Assembly (NCBI GenBank): GCA_030753675.1
Contig: JASMBU010000002.1
Span: 62,001 to 126,000, forward strand
Length of the DNA stretch: 64,000 bases
Source of the DNA: Methylococcales bacterium
Lineage (GTDB): Bacteria > Pseudomonadota > Gammaproteobacteria > Methylococcales > Methylomonadaceae
Direction of reading: 5' to 3'
In this document: positions 161-56,168 of the stretch, piece by piece
Layout of the letters: every line of letters starts with the position of its first letter
Numbering within the stretch: the first letter of the stretch is position 1
Translations under genes and position numbers: made by a program
The notes under the pieces: model-generated
What the model was told of the DNA's origin: nothing
What the model saw: the letters and a program-made list of their open reading frames with translations, nothing else
The model's database searches: none

Positions 161-1132
161 TTAGCGAATGATGTCTCGAGGGGTCTGTCCTGAAAAGAAT
201 TCTTTAATGTTTTCAATAACGCGAAGGCCCATGGCATTTCGGGTTTCTTCGGTAGCACTCCCTAAGTGTGGAAGTAAGGTGACATTGTTGAGGCCTAGGA
301 GTTCAGGGTCTATTGCGGGTTCATTTTCAAAAACATCTAGTCCAGCACCGGCAAACCAGTTGTTTGAAAGTGCTGTGATTAAAGCCTTAGTATCAATAAC
401 ACTGCCACGTGCCGTGTTAATCAGATGGGCTTTAGGGTGTAGAAGTTTTAACCGATCTTCATTTATGAGGTGATGGTTTTGAGGTGAGCCCGGGCAGTGG
501 ATTGAGATAAAGTCTGCAGTTTCTAGCACGGCATCGATTGAGTTGCAGTTCTGTGCTTTAACGGGTTGTGTTAGGTTTAACGGTACTGGGCTGGTGTTGT
601 AGAAAATGATTTTCATATTAAAGCCAAAATGTGCCTTGTAAGCGGTCGCTTGAGCAATGCGCCCGAAACCAATAAGTCCTAATGTTTTTCCAGTCACCTT
701 TTGCCCTAGCATTTGGGTAGGGTGCCAGCCGTGCCATTTTTTTTGACGGATTAGGCGATCTCCTTCGGTACCGCGCCGAGCAGACATCAGTATTAACATC
801 ATTGTTATATCGGCGGTGCAGTCCGTTAAGATATCCGGTGTATTGGTAACGCAAATGCCCTGATCTTGGGCGCTTTGGATATCAATATGATTAAAGCCGA
901 CACCGAAATTACCAATGATTTTAGTGCGGATTGGTGTGGTTTTAAAAATAGCGGTGGATAATGGGTCGGTAACGGTCGAGAGGATGGCGTCGAAATGGCT
1001 TAAGGCATCTTTAAGCGCTTTAGGCGTTAAGGGGTGGTCCTGATGGTTGAGCGTGCTGTCAAATTCTTTTGTAAGGATTTCTTCAATTGCATAAGGCCAT
1101 TTGCGGGTGACCAGAATCTTGGGTCTTTGCAT
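161..1132 (-). CDS. hprA: Hydroxypyruvate reductase (D-2-hydroxyacid dehydrogenase family)
   Basis: NAD(P)H-dependent reductase of 323 residues, the usual family length. A Rossmann motif G-L-I-G-F-G-R-I lies at about residues 152-159. The catalytic triad of the D-isomer 2-hydroxyacid dehydrogenases is visible: Arg242 in T-A-R-G, Glu271 in D-V-F-E-N-E-P and His289 in L-P-H-L-G-S. In the serine cycle this cytosolic enzyme reduces hydroxypyruvate to glycerate. That function is inferred mainly from the adjacent serine-glyoxylate aminotransferase, which makes hydroxypyruvate. Glyoxylate reductase or another 2-hydroxyacid dehydrogenase are the alternatives. It lies downstream of sgaA on the same strand, separated by 106 bases that contain a perfect hairpin. 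Confidence 0.88.
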   Translation of the reverse strand: MQRPKILVTRKWPYAIEEILTKEFDSTLNHQDHPLTPKALKDALSHFDAILSTVTDPLSTAIFKTTPIRTKIIGNFGVGFNHIDIQSAQDQGICVTNTPDILTDCTADITMMLILMSARRGTEGDRLIRQKKWHGWHPTQMLGQKVTGKTLGLIGFGRIAQATAYKAHFGFNMKIIFYNTSPVPLNLTQPVKAQNCNSIDAVLETADFISIHCPGSPQNHHLINEDRLKLLHPKAHLINTARGSVIDTKALITALSNNWFAGAGLDVFENEPAIDPELLGLNNVTLLPHLGSATEETRNAMGLRVIENIKEFFSGQTPRDIIR

Positions 1133-1191
1133 GGTTAACTACCAGTTGCAAGTAATAGTTGGTAGTTTAGCAGATAATAAGCTCTAAAGAC

Positions 1192-1227
1192 CCGTGGATA
1201 AACAGCCTCTTTGCTGTTTATCCACGG
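1192..1227. repeat. Perfect 15-bp inverted repeat between sgaA and hprA
   Basis: The arms at 1192-1206 and 1213-1227 are exact reverse complements around a 6-base loop. The hairpin sits between sgaA and hprA, which both read leftward. No run of T follows it in the leftward direction, so it is not a classical intrinsic terminator. An RNA processing or stability element in the sgaA-hprA transcript, or a protein-binding palindrome, fits better. Each arm contains TTATCCACG, one base from a DnaA box, but the pairing itself looks like the main feature. Confidence 0.75.
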
Positions 1228-1238
1228 ATTATGCGCGT

Positions 1239-2405
1239 TTAGTTGGCAGTGGCGCGGTAATATTCAATAGCTGCAGCCACACCACTTCCGGGTGTTATGT
1301 CAAAGCCATTGTCAAGTAATGCCATTTCTACGCCGGCGATGGCGCCCAGCATGGAAACGTCATTCATGTTGCCCATATGGCCAATTCTGAAAACTTTTCC
1401 CGCAACTTCGGTCAGTCCGCCGCCCAGTGATATGTTGTATTTATGGTAGGCAGTAGCAATAACGTCACGGGCATCTTTGTCTTCAGGAACGACAACAGCG
1501 GAAACGGTATTGGATTCGAAACCGGGTTGGGCACAGAGCGATAAACCCCAAGCAGCAATGGCTTTTCGGGTGCCTTCAGCAAGACGATGGTGTCGTGCAA
1601 AAACATTTTCAAGGCCTTCTTCCAGTAATAAATCTATCGCCTTGCGGAGGCCATGTAAGATTGGGGTAGAGGGGGTGTAGGGCGTATAACCGTCTTTATT
1701 CGTGTTGATGTGGTCTTTTAAGTCTAAAAAGCAGCGAGGGTACGTGTTGGTGCCGCAGGCAGCCATAGCTTTTTGGCTAAAAGCAAGAAAAGCCCCGCCA
1801 GCAGGTAGCATAAAGCCTTTTTGTGAGCCACTAATTGCGCCGTCAACGCCCCACTCATCCATTCTAAAATCAAGACTTGCAATTGAGCTGACGCCGTCAA
1901 CAAACAATAGCGCGGGATGTTGGGCTGCATTTATGGCTAGACGAACGCCGCCGATATCGGAAGTAACGCCGGTTGATGTTTCGTTGTGGGTTGCTAAAAC
2001 AGCTTTAATTTCATGGCCGCTGTCTTCCTTTAGGCGTGTTTCTAGAGTATCAAGAGGGATGCCCTGACCCCATTCAACTTCATGGCATTCCACTTCAAAC
2101 CCTAAGCGCTTTGCCATGTCCATCCAGAGGTGAGCGAATTGACCAAATCGGTAAATGAGTACTTTATCGCCGGGATTGAGGGTGTTTGTCAGGGCTATTT
2201 CCCAGCCGGCAGTACCTGTGGCGGGAAAGATGAACGCTTGGCCTTGTTCGGTTTTAAAGATTTTTTTGAGGTCGTGCAATAGCGGCTTGAGAAGCTCTGG
2301 GAAGGTCGGTGACCGATGGTCTTCCATGTCGACGCGCATAGCATTGCTGACTTCAGTTGGAACGTTCGTAGGACCTGGGATGTAAAGATGATTTCGACCC
2401 GCCAT
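1239..2405 (-). CDS. sgaA: Serine-glyoxylate aminotransferase
   Basis: Class V PLP aminotransferase of 388 residues, close to methylotroph SGAT length. The N-terminus (G-R-N-H-L-Y-I-P-G-P-T) is characteristic. The PLP-contacting Asp170 is in F-V-D-G-V-S-S and the Schiff-base Lys196 in S-G-S-Q-K-G. The enzyme transfers the amino group of serine to glyoxylate, giving hydroxypyruvate and glycine, and so closes the serine cycle. Its neighbours hprA (next step) and the divergent mcl-mtkAB arm (source of glyoxylate) support this over alanine-glyoxylate transaminase. The start is the ATG whose complement ends at 2405. Confidence 0.92.
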   Translation of the reverse strand: MAGRNHLYIPGPTNVPTEVSNAMRVDMEDHRSPTFPELLKPLLHDLKKIFKTEQGQAFIFPATGTAGWEIALTNTLNPGDKVLIYRFGQFAHLWMDMAKRLGFEVECHEVEWGQGIPLDTLETRLKEDSGHEIKAVLATHNETSTGVTSDIGGVRLAINAAQHPALLFVDGVSSIASLDFRMDEWGVDGAISGSQKGFMLPAGGAFLAFSQKAMAACGTNTYPRCFLDLKDHINTNKDGYTPYTPSTPILHGLRKAIDLLLEEGLENVFARHHRLAEGTRKAIAAWGLSLCAQPGFESNTVSAVVVPEDKDARDVIATAYHKYNISLGGGLTEVAGKVFRIGHMGNMNDVSMLGAIAGVEMALLDNGFDITPGSGVAAAIEYYRATAN

Positions 2406-2685
2406 GGTTTGCCTCTATAAATAAAAGTTAAAGTAATTTGATATGCTTTAGAGCAGCAAATCAATAAATAACCCGATATTATCCCATATAAGATGTTAAG
2501 CAGCAATGCTGTTGTCAAATGGCGTTACGGGTCATGGTGGCTGATATTTTTGTAGCAAATAAAAACAGGAGTATGGAAAAAAAGACGGCTGGAATATATA
2601 ATGATGGGTTGCTTTTAGTTGCTTTGAAATTTACGGTGGTAGCTAAGATAATCTGATTGAAATTATAGAGGTTTGGGTATTAATT
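2406..2685. promoter_or_regulatory. Divergent intergenic region between the two serine-cycle arms
   Basis: These 280 bases separate sgaA (leftward) from mcl (rightward), so both promoters and any shared operator must lie here. The stretch is AT-rich. I could not assign a convincing -35/-10 pair. The mcl ribosome-binding site is AGAGGT at about 2668-2673. No LysR-type regulator gene is adjacent. Confidence 0.5.
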
Positions 2686-3636
2686 ATGAGCTATACATTG
2701 TATGAACCATCAGTCCAACGCGTTCAACGTTGTGAACTAGCTGTCCCAGGGTCAAGTCCAGAGATGTTTGAAAAAGCACTGACGAGTGGTGTTGATTTTG
2801 TTTTCTTAGATTTAGAAGATGCTGTTGCGCCTGATGATAAGTTGCAGGCACGTAAAAATGTGATTGAGGCCATTAATGATTTAGATTGGGCGGGGCATGG
2901 GATTGCTGTTTCTGTCAGGATCAATGGTCTGGATACTCAATATATGGTTCGTGATGTTGTTGACTTGGTCGAGCAGGCTGGCGATAAACTAGATACGATC
3001 TTAATTCCCAAGGTAGGGGTTTATGCGGATGTCTATATGGTGGAAGCCATGTTGAGCCAACTGGAAGTACAAGAAGGGTTAACGCATAAAATTGGAATTG
3101 AGTGTTTGATCGAAACAGCCTTGGGAATGGCAAATGTTGAAGATATAGCTCGTAATGGGGCAACCGGTAGGTTAGAGGCATTACATTTTGGGGTTGCTGA
3201 TTATGCGGCGAGTAATCGTGCCAGAACAACTAATATTGGCGGATTAAACCCTGATTACCCAGGTGACCAGTGGCATGCGGCGATTAGTCGAATGACAGTG
3301 GCGTGTAGGGCTTATGGTTTACGTCCTGTTGACGGACCTTTTGGAGATATTAAGGACCCTGAGGGTTTTACTGCTGCTGCAAAGCGAGCTGCTGCATTAG
3401 GTTGTGAAGGGAAATGGGCTATCCATCCGTCGCAAATTGCCTTAGCTAATGATGTGTTTACACCACCACAAGCAGAAGTTGACAAAGCTAAACGTATTTT
3501 AGTGGCATTGAAAGAAGCTGCTGAACAGGGTAAAGGTGCTGCGGCTCTGGATGGGCGATTGATTGATGCGGCTTCTGAAAAAATGGCAACTAATGTTGTT
3601 AAGGCTGCCGAAGCAATTGCGTTAAAGACTAAATAA
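2686..3636 (+). CDS. mclA: Malyl-CoA lyase (HpcH/CitE family)
   Basis: TIM-barrel lyase of 316 residues that splits malyl-CoA into acetyl-CoA and glyoxylate. Family landmarks are F-L-D-L-E-D-A-V (about residues 40-47), Arg78 in V-R-I-N, and the Mg-binding pair Glu143 (I-E-T) and Asp172 (F-G-V-A-D-Y). It is the first gene of a rightward arm, 30 bases before mtkA, which together with mtkB makes malyl-CoA. That pairing is why malyl-CoA lyase is preferred over citrate lyase beta or citramalyl-CoA lyase. The start ATG follows AGAGGT at good distance. Confidence 0.93.
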   Translation: MSYTLYEPSVQRVQRCELAVPGSSPEMFEKALTSGVDFVFLDLEDAVAPDDKLQARKNVIEAINDLDWAGHGIAVSVRINGLDTQYMVRDVVDLVEQAGDKLDTILIPKVGVYADVYMVEAMLSQLEVQEGLTHKIGIECLIETALGMANVEDIARNGATGRLEALHFGVADYAASNRARTTNIGGLNPDYPGDQWHAAISRMTVACRAYGLRPVDGPFGDIKDPEGFTAAAKRAAALGCEGKWAIHPSQIALANDVFTPPQAEVDKAKRILVALKEAAEQGKGAAALDGRLIDAASEKMATNVVKAAEAIALKTK

Positions 3637-3666
3637 ACAGTATTAGATTAAGGAAGGGGAAGGCAC

Positions 3667-4854
3667 TTGGATATTCATGAGTATCAGGCTAAAAATATTT
3701 TAGCAGGTTATGGCGTTAAAATAGCTGAAGGTGGACTAGCATATAGTCCTGAACAAGCGACTCAGCGTGCTCGCGATATTGGCGGCAATGTTTGGGCTGT
3801 AAAAGCACAGATTCATTCAGGTGCGCGTGGTAAAGCAGGCGCTATTAAAATTTGTAAAACACCTGATGAGGTCTTTTCAGCTGCAGATGGCTTATTAGGT
3901 AAAACTATTGTGACGCATCAAACAGGGCCGCAGGGAAAAGTTTGTTCTCGTCTTTATATTGAAGCGGGAACAGATATTGTTCGAGAGCTATACCTGAGTT
4001 TCTTAATTGATAGAGAGTATGAGCGTATTGTGATGATTGGCTCATCTGAAGGCGGCATGGATATTGAAGAAATGGCTGAAAGTAACCCAGAGGCTATTAT
4101 AAAGATTTATATTGAGCCGGCGATTGGTTTGCAGGATTTTCAAGCCCGGGCAATGGCTTTTTCATTAGGTCTTCCTGCCAGCATGTTAAGTCAGGCGGTA
4201 AAGGTGATTGAAGGTTGTTACCGGGCATTGCGCGATACCGATGCTAACATGTTAGAGGTTAATCCCTTGGTGATTAATGGCCATGATGAGCTTATTGCGC
4301 TAGATGCTAAGATGGACTTTGATGACAACGCCTTGTTCCGACGTCAAAATATTTCGGAATTACGAGATAAATCTCAAGAAGATGAGCGAGAAATGGCCGC
4401 TGCCGATAGAGGCTTGAGTTATGTGGGTCTGGACGGTGATATTGGTTGTATGATCAATGGTGCTGGGTTAGCTATGGCTACGATGGATATGATTAAGCTA
4501 GCAGGGGGTGAACCTGCTAATTTTCTTGATGTTGGAGGCGGTGCTTCACCGGAACGAACTGAAAAGGCGTTTCGATTGGTGTTGGCGGATGACAATGTTA
4601 AAGTCATGTTGGTTAATATTTTTGCAGGCATTAATCGCTGTGACTGGATTGCGGAAGGTGTGGTTAAGGCGGTTAAGAATATTGAATTAACGATGCCATT
4701 GATTGTGCGGTTATCTGGAACCAATGTCGATGAGGGAAGAGAAATTATTTCAAAAAGTGGCCTTCCGATCATAATGGCGGAAACATTAGCTGATGCGGCT
4801 GAAAAGGCTGTAGCAGCACGAAATGACGTGATAGCAAAGGGACAAGGAGAATAG
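3667..4854 (+). CDS. mtkA: Malate-CoA ligase (malate thiokinase) beta subunit
   Basis: ATP-grasp protein of 395 residues resembling succinyl-CoA synthetase beta. The N-terminal M-D-I-H-E-Y-Q-A-K opening and the nucleotide-binding [14 protein letters not shown] stretch (about residues 45-58) are typical, with E-V-N-P-L further on and N-I-F-A-G-I-N near the C-terminal domain. With MtkB it forms malyl-CoA from malate, CoA and ATP. The sequence alone does not separate malate from succinate ligase; the upstream malyl-CoA lyase does. The start is TTG at 3667, preceded by a strong purine-rich AGGAAGGGGAAGG. No ATG fits, since the family motif begins at this codon. Confidence 0.92.
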
Positions 4855-4857
4855 ACG

Positions 4858-5745
4858 ATGGCAATTCTAATTAATGAAAGAACACCCATTGTTATTCAAG
4901 GGTTTACCGGAAAAATAGGGACCTTTCATGCCCAAGATATGATTAATTATGGTTCAAATATTGTGGCTGGAATCACCCCTGGAAAGGGCGGGGTCCAGCA
5001 TTTAGGGCGTCCGGTTTTTAATACGGTTAAGGAGTCTGTAGAACAATTAGGTGCCGAAGCGAGTATTATTTTTGTACCACCTGCTTTTGCCGCTGATTCG
5101 ATTATGGAAGCTGCAGAAGCCGGCATTAAATATTGTGTGGCTATTACTGATGGTATACCTACGCAAGATATGATGAAGGTCAAAAATTATTTAAAAAATT
5201 TCCCTGAAGATAGACGTATGGTTCTTACCGGGCCGAATTGTGCCGGTACGATCAGTCCAGGACGTGCCATGCTTGGTATTATGCCGGGACATATTTATAT
5301 GCCTGGTGACGTTGGTGTTGTGGGTCGCTCTGGGACGCTTGGCTATGAGGCTGCTGATCAAATGAAAGCCTTAGGTATCGGTATTTCAACATCAGTTGGT
5401 ATTGGTGGTGATCCTATTAATGGTAGTTCACACCGTAAAATATTGGAAAAGTTTGAGCAAGACCCAGAGACTAAAGTTGTTCTCATGATTGGTGAAATTG
5501 GAGGGCCTCAGGAAATTGAAGCAGGCTTTTTTGCCAAAGAACAAATGAGTAAGCCGGTTGTCGCATATATTGCTGGTTTGACGGCACCGAAAGGTCGACG
5601 GATGGGGCATGCCGGTGCAATTATTTCATCCACAGGTGAGAGTGCGAGTGAAAAAGTAGAGCAACTTCTTGACATGGGTGTCACCATTTCCCCTACGCCC
5701 TCTGCAATGGGTGAGACGGTTGCCAAGGTTCTGGCAAGTTTGTAA
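4858..5745 (+). CDS. mtkB: Malate-CoA ligase (malate thiokinase) alpha subunit
   Basis: CoA-binding and phosphohistidine subunit, 295 residues, of the succinyl-CoA synthetase alpha type. The CoA-binding Rossmann domain begins with V-I-Q-G-F-T-G-K-I-G. The phosphorylated histidine is His251 in R-R-M-G-H-A-G-A-I. The start codon is three bases after the mtkA stop, so the two subunits are almost certainly translationally coupled. Together they activate malate for cleavage by malyl-CoA lyase. This ends the serine-cycle arm; recA follows after 128 bases. Confidence 0.93.
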   Translation: MAILINERTPIVIQGFTGKIGTFHAQDMINYGSNIVAGITPGKGGVQHLGRPVFNTVKESVEQLGAEASIIFVPPAFAADSIMEAAEAGIKYCVAITDGIPTQDMMKVKNYLKNFPEDRRMVLTGPNCAGTISPGRAMLGIMPGHIYMPGDVGVVGRSGTLGYEAADQMKALGIGISTSVGIGGDPINGSSHRKILEKFEQDPETKVVLMIGEIGGPQEIEAGFFAKEQMSKPVVAYIAGLTAPKGRRMGHAGAIISSTGESASEKVEQLLDMGVTISPTPSAMGETVAKVLASL

Positions 5746-45659: not shown

Positions 45660-46262
45660 ATGAAACAAGTTTCTGTATTATTAAGCATTTTATTTTTTAT
45701 TTTTATGTCTGCTGCACAGGCTCATGGCCCAGTGCGTGGAAAACTAACAGCCACGGTTAAAATTAATGCGCCTGCTGATAAAATTTGGGCAGTTATCAAG
45801 AATTTTGATGATATGAGTTGGCACCCTGCAATCGCAGGCACTGAAGGAAAAGGCGGCAATAAGAAAAAAGCAACTCGGGTGCTTACGTTAAAAGGCGGTG
45901 GCACTATTACTGAACAGTTAAAAGCCTATAAAGCCGATAAAATGTCGTATAAGTATAAAATTACTGAGATGAGTACGGTTAAAACCATTACCCATTCTGG
46001 TCAAGATGAGAAGGTACCAGTACTTCCTGTGAGCAATTATGCAGCAACCCTTTCTGTTAAAGGAAAAGGTGGTAGTTCAGTAGTTAAATGGGTTGCGACT
46101 TATTACCGTGGTTATTTGAATAATAATCCACCCAGTGAATTAAATGAAGATGCCGCTGATAAAGCGGTCACGGCTGTTCTTAAAGCAGGGTTAGCAAATT
46201 TATTAGGCAAATTTGAATCAGGCGCTAAAGATACAGCGATTAAATTTAAAATAAAACGATAA
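45660..46262 (+). CDS. Exported SRPBCC-fold protein, MxaD-like
   Basis: 200 residues. Signal peptide of about 21 residues (ending A-A-Q-A-H-G), then a START/SRPBCC domain: A-T-V-K-I-N-A-P-A-D-K-I-W-A-V-I-K-N-F-D-D-M-S-W-H-P-A-I, with G-T-I-T-E-Q-L and Y-A-A-T-L-S-V later. MxaD proteins of methanol oxidation clusters have this layout and are thought to help methanol dehydrogenase interact with cytochrome cL. The link is by fold, export and context, since no mxa structural gene is in the window. AGGAAGG lies before the ATG. Confidence 0.78.
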   Translation: MKQVSVLLSILFFIFMSAAQAHGPVRGKLTATVKINAPADKIWAVIKNFDDMSWHPAIAGTEGKGGNKKKATRVLTLKGGGTITEQLKAYKADKMSYKYKITEMSTVKTITHSGQDEKVPVLPVSNYAATLSVKGKGGSSVVKWVATYYRGYLNNNPPSELNEDAADKAVTAVLKAGLANLLGKFESGAKDTAIKFKIKR

Positions 46263-46293: not shown

Positions 46294-47310
46294 ATGACAA
46301 CAGCGCTTAAATTAGATTTATTTAATAATTCTAAAGTGTCAATAAATTCTAAGATGACAATGTTTGGCGTCATTGTTTTGCTGGTTTTAGCAGTGGTGCC
46401 ATCTTTAACCGTCGCGGCGTCTTTTGCCTTTATTTCCAATCAATTGGATAATAATGTTTCGGTAATTGACACCACCAGTAATGAAGTGATTGAAACAGTT
46501 ACGGTTACTGGTAAGCCTGTTGGCGTTGCCGTTAATAAACAAAAATCACATGTGTATATCAGTACACCTATAGGGAATGGTTTTAGCGTTCTCGATGCTA
46601 ATAATTTTAAACTTAAACGCAAGGTCACGACCAGTAACGGCGCTTTGGGGATTGTTAGTGATAACCAAGGCGAACGTGTCTTTGTGGCCGATTGGTATGA
46701 AAATAATATTGCTGTTTTTGATACGCACGATTTCAAATTATTAACCACGATAGCAGTGGGTCAATCCCCTTCGGGGATGGCTGTCAGTCCAGATGACCGG
46801 TGGCTTTATGTCGCTAACCGTGTTGATGACAGTGTTTCTCAAATTGATCTGAACACCTTCAAAATAAGGAATACAACTAAGGTTGGAACGCATCCTTTTG
46901 GTCTGACTATAGATCAAGATGGACAGCGAATTTATGTGTCTAATGTTGAGAGTGATGATGTTTCAATTCTCACAACAGCAGGCTTAAAAAGAGTGGGTAA
47001 AGTTAAGGTTGGCAGTCGTCCTTATGCCAGTGCCTTAGCATTGCACGACACTTTATTATTTGTTACTAATCAAGATGACACCACTGTTTCAGTGATTGAC
47101 ACGCAGACATTAACCGAAATTAAGCAAATCGAAGTCGGTGAAAAACCTGAAGGTATTAGTACGCATCCTGATGGTAAGCGGGTATATGTTGCGAATTGGT
47201 TTGATGGTACCGTTAGCGTAATTGATGCAACAACCTTAACAATCATGACGACCATCGAAACAGGGGATGGAAGTCGGGCTTTTGGACAGTTCATTTCTCA
47301 ACAACGATAA
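46294..47310 (+). CDS. Exported YVTN-type beta-propeller protein
   Basis: 338 residues. An N-terminal hydrophobic segment (about 22-43) is preceded by a long polar stretch; a second ATG at 46354 would give a shorter, more normal signal peptide. The rest is six to seven YVTN repeats, each with patterns such as D-N-N-V-S-V-I-D-T, G-x-x-P-x-G-V-A-V, V-Y-V-A-N-W and a central T-V-S-V-I-D. Such propellers occur near PQQ dehydrogenase systems. It follows the MxaD-like gene by 31 bases, probably in one transcript, and is paralogous in form to the propeller at 52999-53979. Confidence 0.85.
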   Translation: MTTALKLDLFNNSKVSINSKMTMFGVIVLLVLAVVPSLTVAASFAFISNQLDNNVSVIDTTSNEVIETVTVTGKPVGVAVNKQKSHVYISTPIGNGFSVLDANNFKLKRKVTTSNGALGIVSDNQGERVFVADWYENNIAVFDTHDFKLLTTIAVGQSPSGMAVSPDDRWLYVANRVDDSVSQIDLNTFKIRNTTKVGTHPFGLTIDQDGQRIYVSNVESDDVSILTTAGLKRVGKVKVGSRPYASALALHDTLLFVTNQDDTTVSVIDTQTLTEIKQIEVGEKPEGISTHPDGKRVYVANWFDGTVSVIDATTLTIMTTIETGDGSRAFGQFISQQR

Positions 47311-50799: not shown

Positions 50800-51624
50800 C
50801 TAAAGAGGGGGTTGTTGAGGGCCTTCTTGATTGACAATAAGTAGGTCGCCAATGTGCAGAATGCCGGTGTTTTTATGAATTGCATTTTGACCAAAAAAAA
50901 CTTGATTGTTCCATTTTCTGAGTTTGTTCAGTGTTGTGAGTGGTTCTTTCCCCATTGTTCCTGCCGTGGTGTCTATAGTGGTGATTGCACAACGTGAACA
51001 GGGTTTAGGGAGTCGGAAGAATATCTCACCTACTTGTATTTCACGCCAAAAATCTTCGGCATAGCTTGAGCAATTAGCAATGACCAGATTGGGTCTAAAC
51101 CGTAACATGGGTAGTGATAGATTCATCGCTGAATTTAAGCTGGCTAAGGAATTTTCCGAGATCAAAAGAAAAGGAAAACCATCCGAAAAGTAAATTTGGT
51201 CAGAGGCTAGGCCAAAAGTTTGATCAATAAGGCGAGTATATTGTTCTGGTTGATAGACGAGTTGACAAAAACAATTTAAAACATCACTCAGCCATTTATT
51301 AGCGATTGTTGAGACAGTCCAAGCCATGCATTGATCGTTCCAAATTGAAACAGAACAATCTTCTTTTTTATCAGGGGTTAAGTCCAGAGTCAGGTCCTCA
51401 ATACCTTGTGCAGATAAGATTAAGTGGTTTTTCGTGATGGTGGTTTTGATTAATGACATTTTGGGGAGTTGACGTTGACTTAAAAACTGTCCTTGTTGAT
51501 CAACAATCATCCATTGACGGTCGTATTTTAAGCCACGTGAAGTCACAGGCCATTGATTAACCGAGATGCCCGCTAAGGATTTGATCGGATAGATTGTAAT
51601 TTGACTAAGGTAAGAAGATTGCAT
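50800..51624 (-). CDS. MOSC-domain protein with N-terminal beta-barrel (YcbX-like)
   Basis: 274 residues. An N-terminal MOSC beta-barrel (L-S-Q-I-T-I-Y-P-I-K-S-L-A-G, R-G-L-K-Y-D-R-Q-W-M) is followed by a MOSC domain with the conserved cysteine in P-C-S-R-C-A-I-T-T-I-D (about 211-221). The C-terminal 2Fe-2S domain of some YcbX proteins is absent. Such proteins carry sulfurated molybdenum cofactor and reduce N-hydroxylated compounds. The physiological role here is unknown. Confidence 0.9.
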   Translation of the reverse strand: MQSSYLSQITIYPIKSLAGISVNQWPVTSRGLKYDRQWMIVDQQGQFLSQRQLPKMSLIKTTITKNHLILSAQGIEDLTLDLTPDKKEDCSVSIWNDQCMAWTVSTIANKWLSDVLNCFCQLVYQPEQYTRLIDQTFGLASDQIYFSDGFPFLLISENSLASLNSAMNLSLPMLRFRPNLVIANCSSYAEDFWREIQVGEIFFRLPKPCSRCAITTIDTTAGTMGKEPLTTLNKLRKWNNQVFFGQNAIHKNTGILHIGDLLIVNQEGPQQPPL

Positions 51625-51809: not shown

Positions 51810-53006
51810 TTGAATTTAAGTAAACCACAAGGGATGAATTTTCTTTCTAATCGGTGGTTTGGTCTGTCCGTTATTCTATGGTTTGTTCCGCTGACTGTTT
51901 TCTGTGCAGATACGGTACCTATTGAGATTGTTTATATCTCTCAAAAACAAGCGCAAAAACCAGCGTTATCAAATCTTGATAGTATTCCTAAAGATGAAGG
52001 CCTACAGGGGGCTTTGTTAGCGATCGAAGATAATAATACCACCGGGAAATTCACAGGTCATCAGTTTAAGCTCCTTGAAAAACAATGGTCTGAACAGGGC
52101 GTTAATCCAAAAGATAACAGTATTTTTTTCGAGGAAAAAGCACTGATTGTGGCAGCGCTCGGCGATAATGCTTTGTTGGAAATGAAGCAATTAGCCATGA
52201 ATAAATCTACCCTAATTATGGATGTCGTTTCACGTGCAGATCATTTTCGTCAACAAGGGTGTGGTAATCATGTTTTTTATCTTGCACCCAGTCGCGCCAT
52301 GCGTGCGGATGCCTTGGCGCAATATTTATTAAAGAAACGTTGGGTGAAATGGTTTCTAGTGCAAGGACTCACGAATGAAGATAAGCTTTTTTCTCAAGCT
52401 TTGAAGCGTGCGGCTAAGCGTTTTGGTAGTACTCTTGTTGCTCAGAAAACTTGGCTGCATGATTATGATGCACGCAGAACAGCCCAAGAGGAGGTCTCTG
52501 TTTTCACGCAGGGTGTCGACTACGATGTCTTGGTGGTAGCAGATGAGCAAGGTCTTTTTGGTGAGTATTTAAGTTACCGAACTTGGAAGCCTAGGCCAGT
52601 CGTGGGGACTCAGGGGTTGGTACCTACCGCATGGCATAAAACCCATGAACAATGGGGTGCGGTACAAATTCAAAATCGTTTTAAAGCCCAATCAGGACGG
52701 CGTATGACAGAAAAAGACTATGCGGCCTATTTGGCTATCCGTAGTTATGGGGAGGCAATTATTCGAGTGGGATCTAGTGAGCCAGAAAAAATTAAGGCTT
52801 ATTTGCTGAGTGATCAATTTACCTTACAAGGATACAAAGGGAAGCCTTTGTCATTCCGCTCTTGGAATGGACAATTAAGACAGCCTGTTTTATTAGCAGC
52901 ACCGCGTGCCATGGTGGCTACGGCGCCGATACAGGGTTTTTTACACCCCATAACTGAGTTGGATACATTAGGTTATGACCAGCGGGAAGTAGATTGTAAT
53001 GAGTAA
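51810..53006 (+). CDS. Substrate-binding-like protein of the PQQ-alcohol-dehydrogenase-associated ABC system
   Basis: 398 residues. A signal peptide ends near V-F-C-A-D. The rest resembles a periplasmic branched-chain amino acid-type binding protein (I-E-I-V-Y-I-S-Q-K, G-A-L-L-A-I-E-D-N-N-T). I take the TTG at 51810 because AGAGG is eight bases upstream; the ATG at 51834 has its purine run too close. It is the first of four overlapping genes (binding protein, propeller, ATPase, permease), the set that accompanies PQQ-dependent alcohol oxidation. It overlaps the propeller gene by eight bases. Confidence 0.85.
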   Translation: MNLSKPQGMNFLSNRWFGLSVILWFVPLTVFCADTVPIEIVYISQKQAQKPALSNLDSIPKDEGLQGALLAIEDNNTTGKFTGHQFKLLEKQWSEQGVNPKDNSIFFEEKALIVAALGDNALLEMKQLAMNKSTLIMDVVSRADHFRQQGCGNHVFYLAPSRAMRADALAQYLLKKRWVKWFLVQGLTNEDKLFSQALKRAAKRFGSTLVAQKTWLHDYDARRTAQEEVSVFTQGVDYDVLVVADEQGLFGEYLSYRTWKPRPVVGTQGLVPTAWHKTHEQWGAVQIQNRFKAQSGRRMTEKDYAAYLAIRSYGEAIIRVGSSEPEKIKAYLLSDQFTLQGYKGKPLSFRSWNGQLRQPVLLAAPRAMVATAPIQGFLHPITELDTLGYDQREVDCNE

Positions 53007-53979
53007 AGGAATAGTCTGTTGTATTTATCTGGTTTTGCTATGGGTGCCATCGTGTGTGTTGAGGACAGTGGCGGCTGAGACAATTTATATCACTCTTGAA
53101 AAAGATAATGCCTTGGCAGTGGTTGATCCAGATCTAGGGGAGTTGGTAGCAACCATTCCAATAGGTCAACGGCCGCGAGGTATCGCACTCAGTCACGACC
53201 AGAGTCAATTGTATGTTGCCACCAGTGATGACCATGTGATTCAAATTATTGACATTAAAACATTGGCGCCAGTCGGTGTTCTGCCATCGGGGAATGATCC
53301 GGAAACATTTGCACTGCATACCGCTGCGGATATTCTTTTTGTTTCTAATGAGGATGATAGTTTAGTCTCTGTCGTTGACGTTAATAAGCAGCAAGTCATT
53401 CATGGCATAGGTGTGGGTGTTGAGCCAGAGGGTATTGCCGTGAGTCCGGATGGTCAGTGGGTTGTTAGTGCATCGGAAACGACTAATATGATTCACTGGA
53501 TAGATGCTGAAAGTTATAACGTGGTTGATAATACCCTGGTTGACCCTAGACCGAGAGGGGTTGCTTTTACAGCAGATAGTCAATACTTATGGGTGACTTC
53601 CGAGTTGGCTGGAACGGTGGCTATTTTAGATGTTAAAACACATCAAATTATTAAAACCATTACGTTAGCCGTTCCTGGCTTAAATGCTGATCGTAATCAG
53701 CCGGTGGGGGTGGTTATCGACCCTGAAACACAGTGGGCTTATGTGGCAATGGGGCCTGCTAATCGTGTTGCTATTATTAATGCCAAAACGTTCGCTATAG
53801 AAGATTATCTCTTAGTGGGGGAGCGGGTTTGGAATTTATCTTTTTCACCGGATTATAGTCGACTTTATTGCACCAATGGGGTCAGTAATGATATCTCTAT
53901 TATTGACCTCACCCGTAATAAAGTGGTTAAGTCGATTAAAGTAGGTCATTTCCCATGGGGGCTGGTGGTAAAGCCATGA
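52999..53979 (+). CDS. PQQ-associated exported beta-propeller protein
   Basis: 326 residues with a signal peptide (hydrophobic to about residue 22, A-A-E-T). It is built of YVTN-like repeats: N-A-L-A-V-V-D-P, I-P-I-G-Q-R-P-R-G-I-A-L, L-Y-V-A-T-S-D-D, and repeated P-x-G-V-A-F/V with W-V-T-S-E-L-A-G-T-V-A-I-L-D. It belongs to the propeller family that travels with this ABC system. The ATG lies inside the previous gene, and its TGA overlaps the ATPase start. It may bind the dehydrogenase or a small ligand in the periplasm; the role is not established. Confidence 0.87.
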   Translation: MSKGIVCCIYLVLLWVPSCVLRTVAAETIYITLEKDNALAVVDPDLGELVATIPIGQRPRGIALSHDQSQLYVATSDDHVIQIIDIKTLAPVGVLPSGNDPETFALHTAADILFVSNEDDSLVSVVDVNKQQVIHGIGVGVEPEGIAVSPDGQWVVSASETTNMIHWIDAESYNVVDNTLVDPRPRGVAFTADSQYLWVTSELAGTVAILDVKTHQIIKTITLAVPGLNADRNQPVGVVIDPETQWAYVAMGPANRVAIINAKTFAIEDYLLVGERVWNLSFSPDYSRLYCTNGVSNDISIIDLTRNKVVKSIKVGHFPWGLVVKP

Positions 53980-54716
53980 TGGATTCAATGGCGCTTTCGG
54001 TTAAGGGGTTGAGTTTTTCTTATGGGCCTCAAGCGGCGCTTTTGGGTGTTGGTTTTGACGTGCAACGGAGTCAGTGTTGTATTCTATTAGGCCCTAATGG
54101 TGCCGGTAAAAGCACTTTGTTTGCCTTGATTACAGGCCTTTACCATGCAAGAGAAGGCCGAATAGCCTTAGGGGGTAATGAGATTAAAAAGTCGAGCTTT
54201 CAGGCATTATCTCAATTAGGTGTAGTTTTTCAACAATCGACGTTGGATTTGGATTTAACCATTAAGCAGAATTTACATTACCATGCTGCATTGCATGGAA
54301 TTTCTCGAAAACAAGCGAATAACATCATTCACCAGGAATTAGAGCGCTTTGAAATGTTTGAGCGTTTGAATGAGAAAGTTCGTCATTTAAATGGCGGTCA
54401 TCGGCGCCGAGTAGAAATAGCAAGAGCGTTATTACATAAGCCGTCAGTGTTGTTGTTAGATGAGCCGACAGTTGGATTGGATCTCCCTTCACGGCAAGCG
54501 ATAGTTAGCTATATTCATGACCTAACAAAAGAACAAGGGTTAGCGGTCCTTTGGGCAACGCATTTGATCGATGAAGTGTATCCCACCGATCAATTGGTTG
54601 TGTTGCACCATGGAAAAATTCAAATAACGGGAACGGTGAGTGGGGTCATAGAAAAGGTACATGCAGAAAACCTTCAGGATGCCTTTGCGCATTTTACTCA
54701 AAAAGAGGTTGGCTAA
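53976..54716 (+). CDS. ABC transporter ATP-binding protein, PQQ-associated system
   Basis: 246 residues from the ATG at 53976, which overlaps the propeller stop (ATGA). An in-frame ATG at 53955 lies deeper inside the previous gene and seems less likely. Walker A is G-P-N-G-A-G-K-S-T, and Walker B is V-L-L-L-D-E-P-T-V-G-L-D. The signature is L-N-G-G-H-R-R-R, a departure from the usual L-S-G-G-Q that is worth noting. The D-loop and H-loop (W-A-T-H-L-I-D-E) are present. It powers the permease that follows after two bases. Confidence 0.92.
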   Translation: MMDSMALSVKGLSFSYGPQAALLGVGFDVQRSQCCILLGPNGAGKSTLFALITGLYHAREGRIALGGNEIKKSSFQALSQLGVVFQQSTLDLDLTIKQNLHYHAALHGISRKQANNIIHQELERFEMFERLNEKVRHLNGGHRRRVEIARALLHKPSVLLLDEPTVGLDLPSRQAIVSYIHDLTKEQGLAVLWATHLIDEVYPTDQLVVLHHGKIQITGTVSGVIEKVHAENLQDAFAHFTQKEVG

Positions 54717-54718
54717 GG

Positions 54719-55522
54719 ATGTTATTACTTCATTATCTTAGAGCAATGAAGGGGATTGTTGGCCGTGAATTGTGGCGTTTTGTTCAACAACGGGAACGAT
54801 TTTTTTCGGCGTTAGTGAGGCCGATGATATGGTTATTTGTTTTTGCAGCAGGCTTTAAGTCTGTGTTAGGGATTGCTATTGCACCGCCGTATGAAACCTA
54901 TATTTTATATGAGGTTTATATCACACCTGGTTTGTTAGGGATGATTCAGTTATTTAATGGTATGCAAAGTTCATTATCGATGGTTTATGATCGTGAAATG
55001 GGTAGTATGCGTATTTTATTGGTGAGCCCTTTGCCGCGAAGTTTTTTATTGATAAGCAAATTATTGGCTGGAACTGCTGTGTCTATTGTGCAATGTTATG
55101 TCTTTCTAGCGATTGCCTGGTGCTATGGTATTGAGCCACCGGTGATGGGTTATCTGTGGCTTTTTCCTGCGTTAGTGGTTTCTGGATTAATGTTGGGTTC
55201 ATTGGGGATGTTATTGTCGTCTTTTATTAAGCAATTGGAAAATTTTGCAGGTGTTATGAATTTTGTTATCTTTCCCATGTTTTTCATGTCCAGTGCGTTA
55301 TACCCGTTGTGGAAATTACAGGAGTCGAATGAGTGGTTAGCGCGGTTAGCGGAATATAATCCCTTCACTAAGAATGTTGAGTTGATTCGGTTTGCGTTAT
55401 ATGGGCAATTAAACATTGAGGCCTTATATTATACGGTGGCATCACTTTTGTTGTTTTTATTCGTAGCAATCCAAGGGTATAATCCTTCAAGAGGAATGAT
55501 GAATAAAAAGAAAGGCCGTTGA
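54719..55522 (+). CDS. ABC-2 type permease, PQQ-associated system
   Basis: 267 residues with six hydrophobic segments and an R-F-V-Q-Q-R-E-R-F-F cytoplasmic start, typical of ABC-2 export permeases (DrrB/NodJ-like). M-G-S-M-R-I-L-L-V-S-P-L-P-R is the conserved coupling region. It lies two bases after the ATPase gene and ends the operon. The transported molecule is unknown. Because ABC-2 permeases normally export, the pairing with a binding-protein-like partner is puzzling. Confidence 0.9.
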   Translation: MLLLHYLRAMKGIVGRELWRFVQQRERFFSALVRPMIWLFVFAAGFKSVLGIAIAPPYETYILYEVYITPGLLGMIQLFNGMQSSLSMVYDREMGSMRILLVSPLPRSFLLISKLLAGTAVSIVQCYVFLAIAWCYGIEPPVMGYLWLFPALVVSGLMLGSLGMLLSSFIKQLENFAGVMNFVIFPMFFMSSALYPLWKLQESNEWLARLAEYNPFTKNVELIRFALYGQLNIEALYYTVASLLLFLFVAIQGYNPSRGMMNKKKGR

Positions 55523-55673: not shown

Positions 55674-56168
55674 ATGAGTACTGAAGAAAATAAAAAGAAG
55701 ATTAACAAGGCTAAAGAGCAGGCAATTAAAGTGCTGAAAGATGTTATTGGCAAAGCTAATGACCTTAGGGTGGAAAAACCTGCCAAGTTTTATGGTGGGG
55801 TTGTTGTCTTTTTAGTGCTATATATGTTTGTTTCTAGTGACCGTAACCCGGAAGTCATTAGTGATGGGGAAGGTAATAATTTAAAAGTGGGTGCAACTTA
55901 CTTTTTGAAGAGCCCTAATGCTGAAACACTTGGCGCTGAAAATACAAGAACAGCCATTGTTAAAGAACCTTGTGTATTAACCGGTTGGGATCGCACTGAA
56001 AATGATGACTTAAGTGTTTGTCAAGCGGTTGATGGAACTCAGGTTAATATTCTAGAGTTAAGACAAGCTTTCGGCGTGGCCAATAACTGTGCACGTGTGC
56101 TTATTGAAAGCGGTAATTGCATGAGTAAAGAAGGATGGACGTTAGCAAGTAATATTGCTGAAAGATGA
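55674..56168 (+). CDS. Uncharacterised protein with one membrane helix
   Basis: 164 residues. A charged, helix-forming N-terminus (K-K-K-I-N-K-A-K-E-Q-A) leads to one transmembrane segment at about 41-56. A probable periplasmic domain of about 100 residues follows, with four cysteines (C-V-L-T-G-W, V-C-Q-A-V, N-N-C-A-R, N-C-M-S). AGGGGGC precedes the ATG. No family was recognised. The stop codon touches the tRNA-Gly promoter. Confidence 0.65.
   Translation: MSTEENKKKINKAKEQAIKVLKDVIGKANDLRVEKPAKFYGGVVVFLVLYMFVSSDRNPEVISDGEGNNLKVGATYFLKSPNAETLGAENTRTAIVKEPCVLTGWDRTENDDLSVCQAVDGTQVNILELRQAFGVANNCARVLIESGNCMSKEGWTLASNIAER

Follow-up and report, generated by a model that had tools for sequence, protein, structure and literature searches.

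A PedA1A2BC/Lut-type operon in a Methylococcales genome and the association of its transporter with lanthanide-type PQQ dehydrogenases

Lanthanides are the latest metals known in enzymes, and how they pass the inner membrane or remain outside it is unsettled. In Pseudomonas putida, approximately 100-fold more La3+ is required without pedA1A2BC (PMC6839425). In Methylorubrum extorquens AM1, a receptor, an exported protein, an ATPase and a permease encoded in the lut cluster are required for La-dependent growth on methanol, with XoxF as the client enzyme. That study describes no growth of lutE and lutF mutants and slow growth of lutA and lutB mutants; under the microscope, La lay in the cytoplasm of the wild type, and the lutA, lutE and lutF mutants had periplasmic deposits (PMC7391723). 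Import of lanthanides is in both cases the authors' deduction from mutants (PMC6839425, PMC7391723). Here we analyze an operon of this kind located at positions 51810-55522 of a 64,000-nucleotide stretch of DNA (the window) from a Methylococcales bacterium (assembly GCA_030753675.1, contig JASMBU010000002.1). The initial annotation had described it as an ATP-binding cassette (ABC) system associated with pyrroloquinoline quinone (PQQ), in which both the cargo and the pairing of a receptor with an exporter were unexplained. The cargo is no longer wholly so, as the published genetics tie the system to the use of La3+ and, by inference, to its uptake; the puzzle of a receptor beside an exporter still stands.

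The operon and its host genome

The operon consists of four intact open reading frames, all on the plus strand, that overlap or abut. The overlaps amount to 8 and 25 bases, and a gap of 2 bases separates the ATPase gene from the permease gene.

51810..53006, plus strand: periplasmic binding protein of the PedA1/LutA type, type I fold, 398 amino acids from TTG, signal peptide recognized by eye
52999..53979, plus strand: seven-bladed YVTN propeller of the PedA2 type, 326 amino acids, TIGR03866
53955..54716, plus strand: ABC ATPase of the PedB/LutE type with the signature LNGGH, 253 amino acids, TIGR03864
54719..55522, plus strand: ABC-2 permease of the PedC/LutF type, 267 amino acids, TIGR03861, PF01061

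The four kinds of protein named in the initial annotation are borne out, in that each exceeds the cut-off of its NCBIfam model and TIGR03863, TIGR03866, TIGR03864 and TIGR03861 are all passed within one operon. The receptor, whose gene probably starts at TTG 51810 or at the in-frame ATG 51834, scores 452.7 bits against TIGR03863 (cut-off 413.6) and matches Pfam Peripla_BP_6; its structural model, with a mean predicted local distance difference test (pLDDT) score of 80.2, is used for the fold only and finds its best Foldseek matches among branched-chain amino-acid binding proteins. The propeller reaches 443.3 bits against TIGR03866 (cut-off 287.3), and its model has 28 strands and a mean pLDDT of 94.5. 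The ATPase scores 344 bits against TIGR03864 (cut-off 302.25) and has the altered signature that had been read from it. For the permease, with 404.3 bits against TIGR03861 (cut-off 241.35) and a match to Pfam ABC2_membrane, the next best NCBIfam model is DrrB. Its Pfam matches were to ABC2_membrane families only, with no importer-type permease of the EAA-loop or FecCD/BtuC kind among them, and a profile of 36 PedC sequences matched no solved structure at E ≤ 0.01. In NCBIfam and Pfam, permease and ATPase group with the drug-efflux families DrrA/DrrB. The operon belongs almost certainly to the PedA1A2BC/Lut family and very probably works for lanthanide use. It is itself a known kind of lanthanide system, intact and ordinary.

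PedA1A2BC of P. putida KT2440 has the same four kinds of parts in the same order (PMC6839425), a likeness drawn through the TIGR models, which were built on this group. The KT2440 operon is located near the ped dehydrogenases, whereas the window operon stands alone and its XoxF is encoded on another contig. The AM1 lut cluster also has XoxF as client, but it additionally contains lutC, lutD, lutG, lutH and lanM (PMC7391723). LutB would be the propeller if gene order is a guide. Among the window translations there was neither a LutH-like TonB receptor nor LanM, which was not searched for in the rest of the genome; two TonB-receptor matches lie elsewhere in the genome. The window operon is therefore not a lut cluster in the strict sense. 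In the zinc system AztABCD, an ABC importer, the receptor obtains its metal from the propeller AztD (PMC6689063, PMC7463823). The window propeller reached 21.7 of 400 bits with the AztD model and the window permease is of the ABC-2 kind, so the operon does not qualify as an AztABCD system. AztB is a zinc-importer permease and not an ABC-2 protein. NosDFY, a copper assembly machine, likewise combines an ABC-2 permease and an ATPase with a periplasmic protein in the service of a periplasmic metalloenzyme. NosD is not known to be a propeller of the YVTN kind, nor is a receptor of type I fold known to take part in NosDFY. The window operon is not of the NosDFY type, since its permease and ATPase are accompanied by a binding protein of type I fold and a propeller of the YVTN family.

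The host genome (1.72 Mb, 99.5% complete) has its sequence-matched relatives among the Methylococcaceae and their kin. Its single TIGR03075 match at E ≤ 1e-60 is XoxF on contig C84, away from the operon contig, which agrees with the earlier statement that no dehydrogenase adjoins the operon. The XoxF frame is 100% open; its best solved relative is the lanthanide-dependent XoxF 6dam (1223.6 bits), and it has WDFDGINE at the metal aspartate, where Ala replaces the second Asp in the calcium enzymes of the same search output. Since no calcium-type MxaF was found in the genome, methanol oxidation is inferred to depend on lanthanides. The first 6 kb of the window (161-5745) reads as serine-cycle genes, which we take to encode hydroxypyruvate reductase, serine-glyoxylate aminotransferase, a lyase and the malate thiokinase subunits. 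With a genome of 1.7 Mb and apparently XoxF alone, the host is a further methylotroph with this system, and the operon should be near-essential for its use of methanol.

Distribution of the transporter and its ATPase signature

Co-occurrence was determined in an even sample of the phylum, comprising 377 proteobacterial genomes of 95% completeness or more. Lanthanide-type enzymes were recognized by the motif [FW]-D-[FY]-D-G-[VI]-N-[DE], derived from dehydrogenase sequences before the phylum was tested. Of these genomes, 114 carry a TIGR03075 dehydrogenase; the motif was present in 78 and PedC in 68. All 68 PedC genomes were motif-positive, and PedC was found in none of the 36 motif-negative dehydrogenase carriers and none of the 263 other genomes (Fisher p ~1e-64 overall and ~7e-21 within dehydrogenase carriers, related genomes not being independent). 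The PedC carriers span 40 of 223 genera, and in 49 of the 68 the motif site lies no more than 30 kb from PedC on the same contig. The transporter is associated with PQQ dehydrogenases that are of the lanthanide type by their predicted metal site, not with PQQ dehydrogenases at large. The link to PQQ alcohol dehydrogenases in the initial annotation was sound, but it was drawn too broadly; a comparison with lanthanide-dependent enzymes, which had been proposed there, replaces "PQQ-linked" with "lanthanide-linked". According to Wehrmann et al., all lanthanide users known at that time carry the transporter. New is the exclusiveness of the link between PedC and lanthanide-type enzymes in an even sample of the phylum.

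The motif does not mark every lanthanide-type enzyme. For every one of the 36 motif-negative genomes, the best-scoring dehydrogenase was read individually, together with 15 further ones. Among the 36, three (G495, G364, G405) have the aspartate with other flanking residues, four are doubtful (G281, G354, G382, G313) and 29 lack it in the sequences read.

Within the order, a PedC-family match was obtained in all 151 sampled genomes and exceeded the cut-off in 146. The matches below the cut-off came from G014, G016, G062, G083 and G107, four of which are 70-87% complete and one, G083, 95%. The XoxF query matched 149 of the 151 genomes at E ≤ 0.001, some of them weakly. In one genus of 18 genomes, probably Cycloclasticus, it found only distant matches; 15 of the 18 carry a TIGR03075 enzyme over the cut-off, and all 15 have at least one dehydrogenase with the lanthanide-type aspartate, for example in WDFDG or FDYDG. 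Identity to the window proteins across the order was 72-79% for the permease, 56-65% for the ATPase, 54-70% for the propeller and 51-62% for the receptor, so that the permease, rather than the ATPase, is the best conserved of the four parts.

The lack of a neighboring dehydrogenase, which had seemed a peculiarity of the window, is usual in Methylococcales. Among 36 relatives in which a single contig carries both PedC and the best XoxF match, 34 have the two 177 kb or more apart and the others 27 and 67 kb, and 20 operon stretches from relatives in the order contained no dehydrogenase.

Some genomes do not fit a strict association. Ten motif-positive genomes of the phylum sample have no PedC. 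G083 of the order, 95% complete, has XoxF and neither PedC nor PedB over the cut-off. Conversely, the Cycloclasticus-like genomes G047, G050 and G065 (93, 83 and 80% complete) possess PedC and lack a dehydrogenase over the cut-off.

The unusual signature of the ATPase is not an oddity of one genome. Of 165 PedB sequences, some from genomes represented twice, 89 have LNGGH, 67 LSGGQ, four LSGGN and two LSGGY, and LSGGL, LSGGS and LSGGT occur once each. Asn in the second place is always paired with His in the fifth. A quick tree built from 111 reduced PedB rows requires at least three changes for LNGGH; since 49 of the 108 inner branches are weak, the number of its origins is unsure. The sequences identify LNGGH as a conserved lineage trait of a family that appears active. 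Decay, which the initial annotation would have suspected had the signature been unique and the dehydrogenase lost, finds no support in a widespread signature and an intact XoxF.

The propeller and its charged face

Receptor and propeller follow the permease closely, each being present in 67 of the 68 PedC carriers of the phylum sample. For PedA1, this count combines 62 of 67 fetched stretches with a direct search of genomes, the window and G003. Neither protein was found in G412, where the stretch stops at a contig end. PedA1 was absent from all 46 dehydrogenase carriers without PedC in a search that was positive for eight of nine PedC carriers. The distribution of the propeller is wider. PedA2 over the cut-off occurs without PedC or PedA1 in G324, G328, G342 and G364, each time within 2 kb of a dehydrogenase bearing the aspartate. 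A more distant propeller lies 2-11 kb from a lanthanide-type dehydrogenase in G478, G375, G495 and G441, likewise without PedC. In all, the aspartate is clearly of the lanthanide type in 13 genomes that lack PedC, and in eight of these a propeller is located within 12 kb of the lanthanide-type dehydrogenase. G341, G346, G405, G419 and G518 have no propeller at E ≤ 1e-30, and G522, one of the 29 in which no aspartate was read, has one below the cut-off (6e-39). The same propeller family was reported in XoxF3 gene clusters in a study of weathered granite (PMC10875860). The genes also separate where all are present: in G147 (L056, L270, L271) the permease is apart from ATPase and propeller, in G011 (L051, L269) and G197 (L267) pedA1A2 are apart from pedBC, and in G197 and G521 pedA1A2 lie together with a dehydrogenase, apart from or beyond pedBC.

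In the propeller model, blade strands begin at R58/R60, D100/E102, E142/E144, R184/R186, R276/W278 and W320, and other strands stop just before E34, D77, E118, E160 and E202. In propellers such strand ends share one face. The Glu/Arg set would by this geometry lie on a single face, a placement argued from the strand ends of the model. Fifteen positions have a single letter in 35 PedA2 members, namely E34, R58, R60, D77, E102, E118, E142, E144, E160, R184, R186, E202, R276, W278 and G294. The propellers of G324, G328, G342 and G364 retain this invariant set, except D77 in G342. The distant propellers retain E102, E118, E144, E160, R186, E202, R276, W278, G294 and W320, ten residues that are all missing from the propeller at 46294-47310 of the window and five others of its subfamily; being a separate subfamily, itself from lanthanide loci, these six are a weak control. 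Since at least seven carboxylates would share one face, a site for Ln3+ is plausible there, and the charged face offers a concrete candidate metal site that can be mutated. The Foldseek neighbors of the propeller include AztD, NirF, NirN and BtuG. AztD is a zinc chaperone that hands its metal to an ABC receptor, and NirF, NirN and BtuG are propellers that handle cofactors. The chances that the window propeller carries a metal or a metal complex appear about even. In the literature searched, outside which most subscription papers and preprints fall, no statement was found on the independence of the propeller from the ABC transporter or on its charged face.

Modes of action and neighboring genes

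We moderately favor a model in which Ln3+ travels by way of the propeller and the receptor to an ABC transporter of the exporter type, which carries it inward. Ln3+ or a lanthanide chelate would arrive in the periplasm, where the charged face of PedA2 may hold Ln3+ and pass it to the receptor PedA1. PedA1 would dock on PedC, and the use of ATP by PedB would drive inward movement through the exporter-type permease, as was concluded from the published mutants. XoxF would be supplied from periplasmic or returned metal. Net inward movement of lanthanides by PedBC, taken by itself, is likewise somewhat more likely than not. Apart from the genomes that depart from a strict association, three points weigh against the model. 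A DrrB-like permease of the exporter type offers no precedent for receptor-driven import. Slow growth of lutA and lutB mutants versus no growth of lutE and lutF mutants is not what an importer with strict dependence on its receptor would show. According to the P. putida report, pedH is switched on without any need for La in the cytoplasm, and the authors ask what purpose cytoplasmic La has (PMC6839425).

These points, along with the ABC-independent propeller, would be explained if PedBC moved no metal across the membrane. ATP-driven strokes would instead move PedA1 and PedA2 such that Ln3+ is placed in the periplasmic dehydrogenase, or stripped from chelates there, much as in NosDFY. PedA2 would then be an autonomous periplasmic carrier of Ln or Ln-PQQ, retained next to the dehydrogenase in genomes that lost ABC transporter and receptor or never acquired them, and PedBC an energized loader that makes use of it. 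This proposal suits a system in which an ABC-2 permease and its ATPase work with proteins of the periplasm and serve a metalloenzyme located there. It also suits the same-faced propellers close to lanthanide-type dehydrogenases in eight of 13 ABC-less genomes, the location of pedA1A2 beside the dehydrogenase in G197 and G521, the leaky receptor mutants (PMC7391723) and the puzzling use of cytoplasmic La (PMC6839425). Nevertheless, the shift of La from the cytoplasm of the wild type to the periplasm of the lutA, lutE and lutF mutants speaks for real import (PMC7391723), and PedH apoenzyme acquires lanthanide in vitro unaided (PMC6839425). PedC is moreover of the PF01061/DrrB kind, whereas NosY presumably belongs to another ABC-2 Pfam family. 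We consider periplasmic loading unlikely, though it is the main rival of import, and an autonomous PedA2 that serves such a loader is unlikely to the same degree. The comparative data bring two questions within reach of experiment, namely where in the system the metal is bound and what a permease of the exporter type needs a receptor for.

It is improbable that PedBC is a true exporter that sends a chelator or excess lanthanide out, to be received outside by PedA1 and PedA2. The grouping of permease and ATPase with DrrA/DrrB and the strong conservation of the permease are what such a role would predict. However, loss of the system raises the need for La3+ instead of causing sensitivity (PMC6839425), the cytoplasm of mutants no longer holds La (PMC7391723), and a receptor accompanies PedC in nearly all carriers.

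The family names suggest PQQ or alcohols as cargo: TIGR03861 is designated an "alcohol ABC transporter" and PQQ_ABC, and PedA1 has eight invariant Arg residues, as might be expected of a protein that binds an anion. This cargo was rejected on the distribution of PedC and is very improbable, because the 36 motif-negative genomes with PQQ dehydrogenases, 29 of them without the aspartate in the dehydrogenases read, lack PedC although they also need PQQ and alcohols. The P. putida mutant, moreover, would still use PedE, which needs PQQ (PMC6839425). That the operon is a decaying remnant, as its distance from a dehydrogenase and the altered signature might suggest, can be dismissed in view of open frames, scores above the cut-offs, a signature shared by more than half of the PedB sequences, an intact XoxF and the same lack of linkage in relatives.

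Three further genes of the window lie outside the operon.

45660..46262, plus strand: exported SRPBCC (Polyketide_cyc2) protein, PF10604
46294..47310, plus strand: second YVTN propeller, of another subfamily (184 bits against the TIGR03866 cut-off of 287)
55674..56168, plus strand: small membrane-anchored protein, 3' of pedC, with no NCBIfam or Pfam match

The SRPBCC protein is presumably MxaD-like. Its homologues were found in 11 fetched lanthanide-type loci, near PedA1/PedC or XoxF, and the second propeller adjoins in five; all the loci covered had been chosen because they contain PedC or an enzyme of the lanthanide type. An "MxaD homolog" is among the genes hit in a XoxF screen (PMC7391723). 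In 22 Methylococcales-type loci, some of them from duplicate genomes, pedC is followed by a weak homologue (28-35%) of the small membrane-anchored protein. Upstream of pedA1, a MOSC-domain gene (50800-51624, minus strand) adjoins the operon, as it does in three relatives (L054, L059 and L061). In G495 (L273, 6308-12875) another kind of ABC-2 permease and its ATPase, with no receptor, lie between the lanthanide-type dehydrogenase and apparent pqq biosynthesis genes and are a candidate PQQ exporter.

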